From Bifidobacterium breve (lineage in GTDB: Bacteria > Actinomycetota > Thermoleophilia > Gaiellales > F1-60-MAGs149): a stretch of 41,455 nt of DNA. The notes under the pieces are model-generated. The model saw nothing but the letters and a program-made list of their open reading frames with translations. It searched no databases and was not told the DNA's origin. The DNA is taken from contig CAMAWJ010000003.1 of NCBI GenBank assembly GCA_945861955.1, positions 1 through 41,455 of the forward strand, read 5' to 3'. A program made the translations under genes and the position numbers. Below, piece by piece: positions 682 through 37,065 of this stretch (its first letter is position 1; every line of letters begins with the position of its first letter).

Positions 682-1391
682 CCGTCACGCGTCTCACTGT
701 TCGCGCGCTGCTGTTGCGTCGCCGCTCGCTGGCGTTGCTCCTGCCGGTGTCCTCAGTCCTCTTCTTCGTGGGGCTGTCCATTGTTCGCGGCGATGTCGTT
801 CCTGACATTCAGGCAATCATCGTCGGACGCCTGCTCGTGACGACCGTGGCGCCACTCGTGGCACTCGTCTTGGCCGTCACGGCGATCGGTGACGAGCGCG
901 AATCGGGCACGATCGTCTACCTCGCCACCGCCCGCATCTCGCGACTGCGGATTGCTGCAGAGAAGACGCTGGCTGCAGCCATCTGCACAGCGATCTTGCT
1001 GTCTCCTGCGCTGATCGCGATCGTCATTCTTGGCAACCATCTCGGCGTTGGCACCGACAACATCCTGCGTGGCCTCGCCGGCACGCTCCTCATAGCAACG
1101 GTCTATGTCGCTGTCTTTGTAACGGTCGGGCTGCTCTTGCGACGCGCACTCGTGGCGGGCATTCTCTACATCCTCGTCTGGGAGGGCGCGATCGCCACGA
1201 TCGCTCCCTCGGCCGAGCGGTTCAGCATGACTGCGTGGGGGCGGGCAATCACCGACAGTGGGATCTACGGATTGACACCAGACCTCGTACCCACACTTGG
1301 CGCGACCACAGGCGTGATCGCTTTGGTGGTCGCCACCGGACTTGCCGTCGTCTTGGCCGGTTGGCGCCTCGGGCGGATGGACCTACCTTAA
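678..1391 (+). CDS. ABC-2 type transporter permease
   Basis: 237 aa, multiple hydrophobic segments, ATGA overlap with upstream ATPase gene. Confidence 0.85.
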   Translation: MTVTRLTVRALLLRRRSLALLLPVSSVLFFVGLSIVRGDVVPDIQAIIVGRLLVTTVAPLVALVLAVTAIGDERESGTIVYLATARISRLRIAAEKTLAAAICTAILLSPALIAIVILGNHLGVGTDNILRGLAGTLLIATVYVAVFVTVGLLLRRALVAGILYILVWEGAIATIAPSAERFSMTAWGRAITDSGIYGLTPDLVPTLGATTGVIALVVATGLAVVLAGWRLGRMDLP

Positions 1392-1402
1392 GACCTCTCC
1401 AA

Positions 1403-1422
1403 ACCTGAGAAAACTCTCAGGT
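1403..1422. terminator. Short hairpin ACCTGAGA-aaac-TCTCAGGT (weak terminator or operator)
   Basis: 8-bp perfect inverted repeat with 4-nt loop, 11 nt after permease stop; no U-tract. Confidence 0.4.
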
Positions 1423-1537
1423 AACGCGCGTCAGATTTCAGCACACGCCGGGTCAGCACCAACGACCCACCACGCGGCAACAGAGCGATTTTGTTGTCGA
1501 CATCGTGCTCGACAAACAATCTGACCCTGGAGCCATC

Positions 1538-2989
1538 ATGAAGACACCTTCGCTCACCCGCCGCGGCATCCTCGCCGTCGCGGCCTCCACCGGCGCAGCA
1601 GTGCTACTCGCACAGCCCACTGGACTCGTCGATACAGCACGAGGCTCCGCCAACTCGAACTGCGACCCACACGCCAGCATTACGCCCTACGGCATCAATC
1701 AGGCCGGGATCACCACGAACGCCCCAGAGCACCTCCAACTGGCTGGCTTCGACCTCGTTGCCGGCACCACACGCGAGCAGCTGATTGCGCTACTGCAGAC
1801 GTGGCAGGAGGCAATGGGGCTGCTGACGAAGGGACTGCCAATGCCAGATGCGGGCGCGCCGGATGTGGCTCCCGCCGACACGGGTGAGGCACTCAGCCAG
1901 AGCGCCGACCGCTTGACCATCACCATTGGCTTCGGACCGTCGCTCTTTGACAGCCGGTTTGGGTTTACGAGTCTGCGTCCCACCGCGCTCGTCGACCTCC
2001 CAGCCTTCACGGGCGACGCCCTCGACCCTACGGCCTCTGCTGGCGACCTCTGCCTGCAATGCTGCGCCGAGACCCGGCTCGTAGCCGAGCATGCACTGCG
2101 CACGCTGGCACGTCTGGCCACCGGTCGCGCCACGTTGCGCTGGACACAATCGGGCTTCAATGAACTCCCCACCAATCCAGCAGACGGTGCCGGTCGTAAC
2201 CTGATGGGGTTCAAGGATGGCACTGCCAACCTCAACCCCAAGGATCCCGCCCGCATGGCCCGCAACGTCTGGGTCGATCCGAGCGACGGGGCAGCCTGGC
2301 TCGCAGGCGGCACGTATCTGGTCTACCGCCGCGTGGTTGCAAAGCTCCGCGAGTGGGACGAGAGCGTGCTGTCCGAGCAGGAGGACGTCTTTGGGCGCCG
2401 CCGGGCCACAGGAGCACCATTTGGCGGCACGCGCGAGAACGATCCTGTGCGCAGCGAGCTGATGCCCGTCACGGCCCACATCCGACTGGCTAACCCTCGA
2501 ACGGGGCAGGACAGCGAAGATGAGCGCATCTTCCGTCGTGGCTACTCGTTCCACGACGGTCTCGACGCAACCGGCGAGTACAACGCCGGCTTGGTGTTCA
2601 TCTCCTTCCAGCGCGATGTCCGCAGGCAGTTCATCCCACTTCAGACGCGCCTGGCGGCAAGCGATGCCCTCAACGAGTACATCACACACTCGGCGTCGGC
2701 GATCTTCGTGATCCCACCCGGCACGACAGCGGCGGGCTACATCGGCGAGACACTGCTGGGTGCAGCGCCACCACGCACCACGACCCCAAACCCGGCCGCC
2801 GACCTGCGGACACCGACAGTCCCCAGCGCTCCTGCTGCGCCTGCCGCTCCTGCTGCTCCTGCTGCTCCTGCCGCTCCAGCGAAACCGGCGGCACCAGCGG
2901 CTCCAGGCGCAACGCCGAAAGCGCCAACGCGGGCACCTCGCCCCAAAGCGACCAAAGCCAAGCCGAAGCGCAAGCGTAAGAAGGCGTAG
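1538..2989 (+). CDS. DyP-type (EfeB-like) heme peroxidase, Tat-exported, with Ala/Pro- and Lys/Arg-rich C-terminal tail
   Basis: ATG at 1538 with GGAG 5 nt upstream; MKTPSLTRRGILAVAA twin-arginine leader; NLMGFKDGTANL (GxxDG) and VYRRVVAKLREWD...APFGGTRE DyP motifs. Confidence 0.93.
   Translation: MKTPSLTRRGILAVAASTGAAVLLAQPTGLVDTARGSANSNCDPHASITPYGINQAGITTNAPEHLQLAGFDLVAGTTREQLIALLQTWQEAMGLLTKGLPMPDAGAPDVAPADTGEALSQSADRLTITIGFGPSLFDSRFGFTSLRPTALVDLPAFTGDALDPTASAGDLCLQCCAETRLVAEHALRTLARLATGRATLRWTQSGFNELPTNPADGAGRNLMGFKDGTANLNPKDPARMARNVWVDPSDGAAWLAGGTYLVYRRVVAKLREWDESVLSEQEDVFGRRRATGAPFGGTRENDPVRSELMPVTAHIRLANPRTGQDSEDERIFRRGYSFHDGLDATGEYNAGLVFISFQRDVRRQFIPLQTRLAASDALNEYITHSASAIFVIPPGTTAAGYIGETLLGAAPPRTTTPNPAADLRTPTVPSAPAAPAAPAAPAAPAAPAKPAAPAAPGATPKAPTRAPRPKATKAKPKRKRKKA
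2828..2881 (+). repeat. 9-bp-period coding microrepeat (GCTCCTGCT-like, six units) encoding (AP A)n
   Basis: gctcctgct gcgcctgcc gctcctgct gctcctgct gctcctgcc gctccagcg read directly. Confidence 0.9.
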
Positions 2990-2992
2990 TAA

Positions 2993-3031
2993 CCAATGTC
3001 CAGATGGGGCCTGGCCCCTTCTGGACATTGG
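2993..3031. terminator. 39-bp near-perfect palindrome between convergent dyp and tRNA-Ala; probable bidirectional terminator/REP-like element
   Basis: CCAATGTCCAGA-T-GGGGCCTGGCCCC-T-TCTGGACATTGG; 12-bp arms, T/T mismatch, GC inner stem. Confidence 0.7.
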
Positions 3032-3044
3032 CCGACGAATGCGA

Positions 3045-3117
3045 TGGAGCCAAGGGGGATCGAACCCCTGACCTTCTGGCTGCCAGCCAGACGCTCTCCC
3101 AGCTGAGCTATGGCCCC
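3045..3117 (-). tRNA. tRNA-Ala (anticodon GGC)
   Basis: Reverse complement GGGGCCATAGCTCAGCTGGGAGAGCGTCTGGCTGGCAGCCAGAAGGTCAGGGGTTCGATCCCCCTTGGCTCCA folds as a cloverleaf; anticodon loop CTGGCAG; 3' CCA not encoded. Confidence 0.96.
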
Positions 3118-3192
3118 GTCAGCAGCGCACGATAGCAAGCCGGCTAGGAACGCCTTGACAGACCGTGCCGCTGCAACTCGCGTCGCGTGGCG

Positions 3193-3615
3193 CTAGCCCT
3201 CAGCGACGAGCGTATGTGGGACTTGGCCCCACAACTCGTCAAGGCGATACAACTCGCGCGACTCGGGCACGAAGACATGAACGACGATGTCGAGAAAGTC
3301 GATCAACACCCACGTGCCTTCCTTCATGCCCTCTGTGCGCAACGGGATCAGGCCATGCTCGCGCTTCATACGCAGCCCAACCTCTTCGGCGATGGCCTGA
3401 ACCTGGCGGGTGTTACTCCCAGTCATGACGACGAACCAGTCGGTGTACGCGACGACGCCGCGCATATCGAGCAGAACGATGTCCGTCGCGAGCTTGTCCG
3501 CACCAATAGAGGCAGCCTGCTCAGCGAGAACGGTGGTATCGCTCAGTGGTTCAGTCCCTTGCTCCAAGCACAAGCGGAACGTACCACGGCTGGCCGACGG
3601 ATCATCCGGCACCAC
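3193..3615 (-). CDS. rsfS: Ribosome silencing factor RsfS/Iojap
   Basis: DIVLLDMRGVVAYTDWFVVMTGSNTRQVQAIAEEV...EGMKEGTWVLIDFLDIVVHVFVPESRELYRLDELW; next to nadD and obg. Confidence 0.93.
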   Translation of the reverse strand: MVPDDPSASRGTFRLCLEQGTEPLSDTTVLAEQAASIGADKLATDIVLLDMRGVVAYTDWFVVMTGSNTRQVQAIAEEVGLRMKREHGLIPLRTEGMKEGTWVLIDFLDIVVHVFVPESRELYRLDELWGQVPHTLVAEG

Positions 3616-34458: not shown

Positions 34459-34510
34459 AGTCTCTACGCTATGTCTCTATGCAGTGTCTCTTTGCAGTGT
34501 CTCTATGCTG
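34459..34510 (+). repeat. Four tandem 13-bp repeats (TGTCTCTATGCAG-like) upstream of MBOAT gene
   Basis: agtctctacgcta / tgtctctatgcag / tgtctctttgcag / tgtctctatgctg. Confidence 0.85.
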
Positions 34511-34636: not shown

Positions 34637-35827
34637 ATGCTAGCCACCTTCACGGTTCTCGTCGTGCTGACGACCGTCGCAAGCCTGATCTACAACGCGA
34701 TCCCGAGCCAAGTCACCTGGCTGCGACGCGGGCTGATTCTGCTCGTCTCAGCGACGGTCATTTACACGTTCAACCCCCGCACGCTCGCAATTGCCATTCT
34801 GATCACGGTTTTTGCCTTCGGTGTCTACATCCTCGCGCGCCGATTTCCTTCGCTCTCATGGATCCCTTGGCTGGTGATGGCCCCACTCGTACTGAACGCC
34901 ATCAGCGAGGTCGCCTTCGACCGTAACTGGGGCGATCTGCTGCCCTTCCCAACTGGATCTCCCGTCAGCCCGATGATCACGCAACTGGCCACGCTCGGGC
35001 TCTCGTTCTACTCCTTCAAGCTCTACATTTCGATCAAGGAGGGTCTTCATGCCGATCGACTACGCGTGCGCGACATGTTGACGGGAGTGCTCTTCTTTCC
35101 CAGTTTCCCAATTGGGCCGATCGATGGTGCCGCCGCCTTCAACGACGCGGCGATTCGTCGCCCTGCGAACCCTCGTCTATGGCTGCTCGGACTTGCCCGC
35201 ATCGGCATGGGTGGTGCGAAGGTCTACCTCGTCGCCGACTGGCTCACGAACGCACTGCCGGCCGCCCTCGGCTTCCACTCGCTCGAGTTTGTACAGACCC
35301 ATGTCTTTACGAGCCCCGGGCGAGCGCTCACCTTCATGCTGCTGAGTTTTTTGCTTCTCTACCTCAACTTCTCAGGCTTCTCGGACATCGCCATTGGCGC
35401 CGGCATGATGTTCAATCTACGCCTGACCGAGAATTTCCACTACCCGCTCCTGAGCAGCTCGATCCAAAACTTCTGGCAGCGCTGGAACCTCTCACTAGCC
35501 TCGTTTATTACAACGTACCTATTTAAGCCACTGCTGCGCACGACGGGCCGCCCGGTGGTGTCGCTGATCATCGCTTTCACGTTGATCGGACTGTGGCATC
35601 GCGTGTCGCTGGGCTACCTCTTTTGGGGCGTTGCTCACGGCACGGCACTCGGCGTGGCGCTGTGGTGGCGGAAGCGCGGTGGCAGGCCACTGCCGATTCC
35701 CAACAGCGTCCGGCAACTCGGTGGAATCGCACTGACCCTGCTCTTTGTCTCGTTCGTTTCGACGATCGCAAACATGCCGAATTGGCGTCGCACCCAACAG
35801 TTCTTGGAGGCCCTCGTTGGACAGTGA
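34637..35827 (+). CDS. MBOAT-family O-acyltransferase (AlgI/DltB-like)
   Basis: Polytopic; LLLYLNFSGFSDIAIGAGMMFNLRLTENFHYPLLSSSIQNFWQRWNLSLASFITTYLFKPL and LIGLWHRVSLGYLFWGVAHG (conserved MBOAT His). Confidence 0.93.
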   Translation: MLATFTVLVVLTTVASLIYNAIPSQVTWLRRGLILLVSATVIYTFNPRTLAIAILITVFAFGVYILARRFPSLSWIPWLVMAPLVLNAISEVAFDRNWGDLLPFPTGSPVSPMITQLATLGLSFYSFKLYISIKEGLHADRLRVRDMLTGVLFFPSFPIGPIDGAAAFNDAAIRRPANPRLWLLGLARIGMGGAKVYLVADWLTNALPAALGFHSLEFVQTHVFTSPGRALTFMLLSFLLLYLNFSGFSDIAIGAGMMFNLRLTENFHYPLLSSSIQNFWQRWNLSLASFITTYLFKPLLRTTGRPVVSLIIAFTLIGLWHRVSLGYLFWGVAHGTALGVALWWRKRGGRPLPIPNSVRQLGGIALTLLFVSFVSTIANMPNWRRTQQFLEALVGQ

Positions 35828-35978
35828 CCACAGCCAGCAGCCGCTTCACGAGCGTGCGTGGGCGTTCGCGCAGGAACACGCATTGTGGATCCAGATAGCG
35901 ATTGGCATCATCGCGTGGCTCGCGATCGCATTGGCCTTCCCACTCACCTCCACAACACCGATCTATGCCAGATACTGA
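35817..35978 (+). CDS. 53-aa single-TM small protein ending ...TTPIYARY, candidate DltX-like acyl-relay peptide
   Basis: TTG start with GGAGG (35806-35810) 6 nt upstream; overlaps MBOAT stop and SGNH start; (M)DSDHSQQPLHERAWAFAQEHALWIQIAIGIIAWLAIALAFPLTSTTPIYARY. Confidence 0.65.
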   Translation: MDSDHSQQPLHERAWAFAQEHALWIQIAIGIIAWLAIALAFPLTSTTPIYARY

Positions 35979-37065
35979 GCCTATGCCTACAGACTCTTCG
36001 TCGTCGCACGGACGCTATCGCCTGACGCGCACCAACATCGTCTTTGGTGTCTTCGGGCTGTTCTCTGTGGTGCTCGTGGCACTGCTGCTGTGGTGGTCTG
36101 ACACGGCACCAGCACGCTACGCCGTCATGCCCTGCCAGTACAACGCGATCTTCGAAACTGCTGGTCCAGTCGGTGCCGTCGTGCTCGGCTCGTCGCGTGT
36201 GCAGCACGCTGTCTCGTCCCGCATCCTCTCCGCCGATTTGGCGGCTGCTGGTCGGCCAGACAACGTGATCAATCTCGCGCGGGGTGGTCGGGGACCAGAG
36301 CAGCTCTATCAAATGCTGCTCGACGTCGATCGGCAGCGCGGGCTGCAGGGCCCAATCATCGTCGAGTACTCGCCGCAGGACACGGCCTTTTGGCGCAACA
36401 CGCCGCTGTACTACCAGTACTACCCTGGCTTCGGTGCGAACGCCGAGTTTACGTCACTGACCGAGGATTGGCGTGCAAAACCACGCGAGCCTGCCTACAG
36501 CCGTCTCCGCGATCTATTCGGGTTGCTCGAGTATCGGCTCGATGCAGCGATCGAGAACAGCACCAACGGTAAGGCCAGCCGTAATCGTGTGCTGGCTACC
36601 GCAGGGCGGAACCACGACACTACGGTCTCGTGTTTGACCCGCCAAAAAAAAGGCCAAACTGCAGGACAACGCAATCAGCTTCGCCGTGTCTATGCCAAAA
36701 CAGTTCGCGTCTACGGGACAGACCCCACACCTGGCGACGTCCCGCCGGTGGCGAGCCAACTGCAGCTGATCAATCAGGATGCTCAGAATCACTACCTCGA
36801 TCTGATCATCTCGCTTGCCAAGCGGCGCGGCGTCCCCGTCTACCCCATCGTCGTTCCAGGATTCTTCGAGCCGGCTCCGTCGCCTGAAACGTTCACAGAG
36901 TTCGAAGCACGCTTCGGGATCCCCCTGCTCTATCCGGATTCCCAAGAGCTCGCTGCCTACGGCGACACGACACGATTCTTGGACGCCTTTCACCTCAACC
37001 TGACCGGCAGCGAGGCCTACACCGATTGGCTCGCCAGCATCATCGTGCAGGCACCCACCAGCTAG
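35965..37065 (+). CDS. Membrane-anchored SGNH/DltD/AlgJ-like protein
   Basis: N-terminal TM, VVLGSSRVQHAVSS (catalytic Ser block), INLARGGRGPEQLYQMLLDV, FLDAFHLNLTGSEAYTDWL (D-x-x-H block); adjacent to MBOAT. Confidence 0.82.
   Translation: MPDTEPMPTDSSSSHGRYRLTRTNIVFGVFGLFSVVLVALLLWWSDTAPARYAVMPCQYNAIFETAGPVGAVVLGSSRVQHAVSSRILSADLAAAGRPDNVINLARGGRGPEQLYQMLLDVDRQRGLQGPIIVEYSPQDTAFWRNTPLYYQYYPGFGANAEFTSLTEDWRAKPREPAYSRLRDLFGLLEYRLDAAIENSTNGKASRNRVLATAGRNHDTTVSCLTRQKKGQTAGQRNQLRRVYAKTVRVYGTDPTPGDVPPVASQLQLINQDAQNHYLDLIISLAKRRGVPVYPIVVPGFFEPAPSPETFTEFEARFGIPLLYPDSQELAAYGDTTRFLDAFHLNLTGSEAYTDWLASIIVQAPTS

Follow-up and report, generated by a model that had tools for sequence, protein, structure and literature searches.

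A 53-residue peptide encoded between MBOAT and SGNH genes in a genus of freshwater Actinomycetota: a probable DltX-like tyrosine shuttle outside the Dlt system

The acyl-shuttle motif FXYXXF has been described with its tyrosine acetylated in PatA (Neisseria PatA ends FIYANF), and the motif tyrosine was reported to carry the acyl group in both PatA and DltX (PMC12148441). In the published view, a free-standing shuttle microprotein is found only in the Dlt system and elsewhere the motif is carried by the MBOAT protein; the non-Dlt MBOAT/SGNH pathways treated in that 2025 paper are without a DltX-like microprotein (PMC12148441). In the Dlt system, DltC docks on helix HC of DltB (contact residues Met302, Val305, Ile306, Met309 and Lys312; PMC11035591). 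In the control Dlt operons used here, taken from other Actinomycetota, the MBOAT gene is preceded by a DltA-like gene and accompanied by a DltX-like peptide (C-termini e.g. SPVYAEF, APLYAEF) and an SGNH gene.

The window, i.e., the whole stretch of 41,455 nucleotides that was analysed, belongs to a genome of 1.1 Mb (68.7% complete); its relatives with names are Thermoleophilia/Actinomycetota MAGs, several of lake origin (e.g. Baikal). The following features were located:

34637..35827, + strand: MBOAT acyltransferase, 396 aa (Pfam MBOAT, E 7.8e-13; TIGR04091 DltB, 95 bits; 6bug/8jem alignment).
35806..35810, + strand: GGAGG, Shine-Dalgarno-like sequence, 6 nt ahead of the TTG start.
35817..35978, + strand: single-helix microprotein, 53 aa, proposed acyl shuttle (13 homologues; purifying selection; FXYXXF register).
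35964-35966, + strand: codon of Tyr50, the residue of the C-terminal hexapeptide PIYARY that is proposed as nucleophile (invariant in homologues).
35965..37065, + strand: SGNH/DltD-like, membrane-anchored acyltransferase, 366 aa (14-homologue alignment; AlphaFold2 model).

The peptide encoded by 35817-35978 is MDSDHSQQPLHERAWAFAQEHALWIQIAIGIIAWLAIALAFPLTSTTPIYARY (TTG start, C-terminus TSTTPIYARY). Coordinates of the three ORFs, spacing of the GGAGG and the TSTTPIYARY end agree with the original prediction. Overlap of all three frames had also been claimed: that of MBOAT and peptide (11 nt) was confirmed; that of peptide and SGNH (14 nt) holds if the SGNH frame starts at 35965, a start that is uncertain; if translation began at another in-frame ATG, at 35983, this overlap would vanish. 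The cassette is flanked in the window by a glycoside hydrolase-like gene upstream and a 3D-domain protein downstream; flanking genes vary between lineages, and no clear polymer is indicated by the neighbours. Short imperfect direct repeats (gtctctatgca / gtctctttgca) are present at 34459-34510, just 5' of the MBOAT gene. The genus MBOAT set comprised 15 loci (identity 48–100%); at 13 of them an ORF of 51–61 aa with one hydrophobic helix is kept at the same position, between the MBOAT and SGNH genes, as expected of the conserved gene that had been proposed.

The MBOAT profile matched solved DltB with E 5.5e-20, and the model of the window protein (mean pLDDT 70) gave DltB as top structural match (E 3.7e-8, TM 0.66). 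His321 aligns with the catalytic His336 of DltB and Asn284 with DltB His289 (6bug/8jem); the latter position is Asn in the window protein and its closest relative (FWQRWN), whereas the remaining genus members shown have His. Asn also occurs at this position in some eukaryotic MBOATs. The protein is of DltB-like length, is without a C-terminal shuttle helix and ends ...FLEALVGQ with no fused motif; in the MBOAT tree, the genus forms a deep lineage apart from the Dlt and fused clades, the branches being long and their exact order uncertain. For the window SGNH protein, no Pfam or NCBIfam match was obtained, and a PDB sequence search with the SGNH profile was likewise without a match. Its AlphaFold2 model (pLDDT 79.7, pTM 0.82) gave DltD structures as all four best PDB matches (top 3bma and 7dxm; E 2.7e-4 to 1.9e-3), at the fold level, the TM to DltD being low (about 0.33). 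G75-x-S77-R78 and D340-x-x-H343 are invariant in 14 homologues and fit a Ser-Asp-His triad. At one locus (L051; MBOAT match at 1733), apparently two tandem SGNH genes follow the microprotein, 1357-3426 downstream of the MBOAT start.

Dlt family models and genome searches placed the cassette outside the Dlt system. With TIGR04091 DltB (cut-off 375 bits), the window MBOAT scored 95 bits and other genus members 118 and 99, versus 480 for the control DltB; the DltD models TIGR04092 and PF04914 matched neither the window SGNH protein nor its homologues (control DltD, 234 and 244 bits). The one control Dlt operon scored was thus above the DltB and DltD cut-offs, and the window cassette above neither. 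The original prediction had noted no dltA or dltC nearby, and this extends to whole genomes: dltC was found in 0/21 (among them three from the genus with a completeness of 91% or higher, the window genome itself being 68.7% complete; control genomes detected), and dltA above cut-off also in 0/21 (the highest score in the genus was 62 bits against a cut-off of 560; the control DltA, at 491, falls slightly under the same cut-off, yet passes NF003417). The spacing of the catalytic residues that bracket the docking helix is 37 in every genus MBOAT tested vs 47 in 12/12 DltBs (fused MBOATs mostly have 40–42, and three of them 57); the genus MBOAT is shorter by 10 residues in the segment holding the DltC-docking helix of DltB.

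These data bear on the strongest rival explanation, a true but diverged Dlt system that transfers D-alanine and has unrecognised DltA and DltC encoded elsewhere. Such a system would account for DltB and DltD as the closest solved folds and for the similarity of the peptide to Dlt-operon DltX peptides; it is nevertheless unlikely in view of the low DltB score, the lack of a match to DltD models that the control DltD matches, the absence of dltC from genomes searched alongside detected controls, the shortening of the very segment that carries contacts Met302–Lys312 (PMC11035591), and the separate deep lineage of the MBOAT. As judged by sequence comparison, the cassette very probably works like DltB-DltX-DltD and is not a Dlt system. 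Since dltC is missing, dltA is not found above cut-off and the docking segment is short, acyl-CoA is the most economical donor to infer, and probably the one used.

The C-terminal motif was compared with the published one. All 13 homologues end P-[IV]-Y-A-x-[YF], i.e., with Y-x-x-aromatic at the very C-terminus; invariant positions include Pro48, Tyr50 and Ala51, and position 53 is Tyr in 10 and Phe in 3. The register is that of FXYXXF, with Pro standing in for the first Phe of the full motif, a change also found in several control Dlt-operon peptides (e.g. SPVYAEF). All of 68 distinct fused MBOATs from class surveys end x-x-Y-x-x-F. Conservation of the terminal tyrosine had been anticipated; it does not hold for Tyr as such (Phe in 3/13) and does hold for an aromatic position, as FXYXXF predicts. 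Tyr50 aligns with the motif Tyr, so Tyr53 would be the counterpart of the last Phe, and the likely nucleophile is Tyr50 of P-I-Y50-A-R-Y53, not the C-terminal Tyr53. Alignment of the genus peptide profile with control Dlt-operon peptides by hhalign extended through the C-terminus (probability 69.8%, E 4.2e-5), a moderate match to be read with the caveat that short membrane helices can look alike by composition. Against Pfam, the peptide gave a weak SdpI match only (E 0.017, under the cut-off); no Pfam DltX match was obtained, which is uninformative, the control DltX-like peptides being equally without one. When the PDB was searched by sequence with the profile of the peptide, only a transporter match came up, judged to be due to chance; matches of this profile to genera elsewhere in the class (E 0.004–0.1) lie mostly within long frames.

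By analogy with DltX, the 53-residue membrane peptide in all likelihood ferries an acyl group, bound to a tyrosine, between two enzymes outside the cell. The scheme preferred here, in which we place considerable confidence, is an envelope acylation machine fed without DltA and DltC. The MBOAT protein would draw on a cytoplasmic donor for the acyl group; the likeliest donor is an acyl-CoA (acetyl-CoA, for example). His321 of the MBOAT protein would move this group onto Tyr50 of the microprotein, whose C-terminus is predicted to lie outside the cytoplasm; the acylated peptide would then swing to the SGNH protein (topology and complex as predicted), which would pass the acyl group via Ser77 to a presumed envelope polymer. 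The DltX-like tyrosine relay originally proposed for a non-Dlt MBOAT/SGNH system thus draws support from conservation, motif register, gene order and DltB/DltD-like folds, and also from the missing dltC, the lack of dltA above cut-off and the shortened DltC-docking segment.

Counter-evidence came from loci without the peptide. At L037 (G001:C26) and L005 (G012:C108), the MBOAT and SGNH genes overlap directly, the SGNH frame starting at −11 (TTG) from the MBOAT stop, which is the start position of the window peptide; each of these genomes holds another complete cassette, and sharing of the shuttle in trans, or its loss, is possible. Further, 12 MBOATs of family f6 of the class have neither a fused motif nor a nearby microprotein. 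The f6 proteins (L096–L107) are of about 415 aa, and at several of these loci an SGNH-like gene (YLFGGSGT...D-x-x-HLL) follows. A C-terminal Tyr shuttle may, therefore, not be universal. The same loci, where both enzymes are kept without the peptide or no shuttle motif is visible, are what would be expected if the small ORF were real and encoded an assembly or regulatory subunit, with a structural Tyr50 and direct transfer from MBOAT to SGNH protein or acceptor; this is improbable, more so than a diverged Dlt system, because the exact C-terminal Tyr register, as in PatA and DltX, is among the most conserved parts of the peptide.

The ORF is a real gene by the comparative evidence. GGAG precedes the start in 13/13 homologues, the start codon itself differing among them (TTG, GTG, ATG); in some lineages the ORF starts past the MBOAT stop, without overlap, and is, therefore, translatable on its own. 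In-frame dN/dS amounts to 0–0.41 (11 close pairs), which corresponds to purifying selection and is not the value near 1 that would have spoken against the gene; the two other forward frames, where they yield a defined ratio, reach about 0.8 or higher. Among 2,701 stop-to-stop ORFs of 30–150 codons, drawn from the window and from 15 genome-contig loci, no more than 13 have Y-x-x-[FY] at their end; the fuller motif is matched by 11 of them. That the frame is open merely by chance, where two genes overlap, might be suggested by the TTG start, the short length and the overlap with both neighbours; this reading is already refuted for practical purposes by maintenance of the frame in 13 loci under purifying selection, by a Shine-Dalgarno-like sequence ahead of every one, by independent starts (ATG, GTG or TTG) and by non-overlapping placement in other lineages.

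A second split type was found in three other genera (L092–L095, L126 and L168; genomes G070, G047, G079 and G045, of another genus of the same order; G127, of another family of the class; G335, from elsewhere in the phylum). Here, a motif-less MBOAT is followed by a separate helix of 36–44 aa that ends FIY[VI]DF, FIYIAF or FLYIDF and overlaps the MBOAT stop in several loci; the gene order is SGNH-MBOAT-microprotein, with the SGNH gene just upstream where read. The MBOATs are nearer to the fused clade and have its PLGGxR sequence, so the peptide looks like a separately detached last helix; this type is likely of separate origin. Profile comparison of the genus peptide with the second split type gave no match. 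No dltA was found among the neighbouring genes, the whole-genome search having covered only some of these genomes.

Compared with known systems, the genus cassette shares with DltB-DltX-DltD an MBOAT without its own shuttle helix, a separate single-helix Tyr-motif microprotein and an SGNH partner, together with the nearest solved folds of both enzymes; it differs in lacking dltC as well as any above-cut-off dltA, in falling under the Dlt family cut-offs, in the DltC-docking segment (10 residues shorter), in the position of the peptide gene between MBOAT and SGNH and in the motif (P-[IV]-Y-A-x-[YF] instead of FXYXXF). With PatA-PatB-like pairs (alginate, cellulose, secondary wall polysaccharide) it has in common two-enzyme acylation, an invariant Tyr in the C-terminal hexapeptide and the lack of carrier-protein genes; in those pairs, however, the MBOAT itself carries the motif, fused on with two extra C-terminal helices, whereas in the genus cassette it is a separate gene. 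The second split type is alike in its motif-less MBOAT, separate Tyr-motif peptide and lack of adjacent dltA, and unlike in gene order (SGNH-MBOAT-peptide), FIY/FLY motif and an MBOAT nearer to the fused clade.

The genus cassette and the second split type are counter-examples, in at least two MBOAT lineages, to the rule that free-standing shuttles are confined to Dlt. No earlier description of a non-Dlt free-standing shuttle was found in a literature search whose scope did not take in the primary DltX mechanism paper. Whether the genus represents a third MBOAT/SGNH class, neither Dlt nor PatAB-like and defined by a deep lineage, a free tyrosine shuttle and a carrier-free donor, with free shuttles having arisen at least twice outside Dlt, is in our estimation evenly balanced. 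The 53-residue peptide, from a freshwater actinomycetotal host, is easily overlooked by gene callers, and a tiny ORF ending Y-x-x-[FY] beside a short MBOAT gene may serve as a search rule for further overlooked microproteins. Because the shuttle has a gene of its own, it can be removed, mutated or swapped in these cassettes, which provide a naturally occurring system free of DltA and DltC; if free shuttles did arise at least twice outside Dlt, shuttle and MBOAT would be evolutionarily separable modules.
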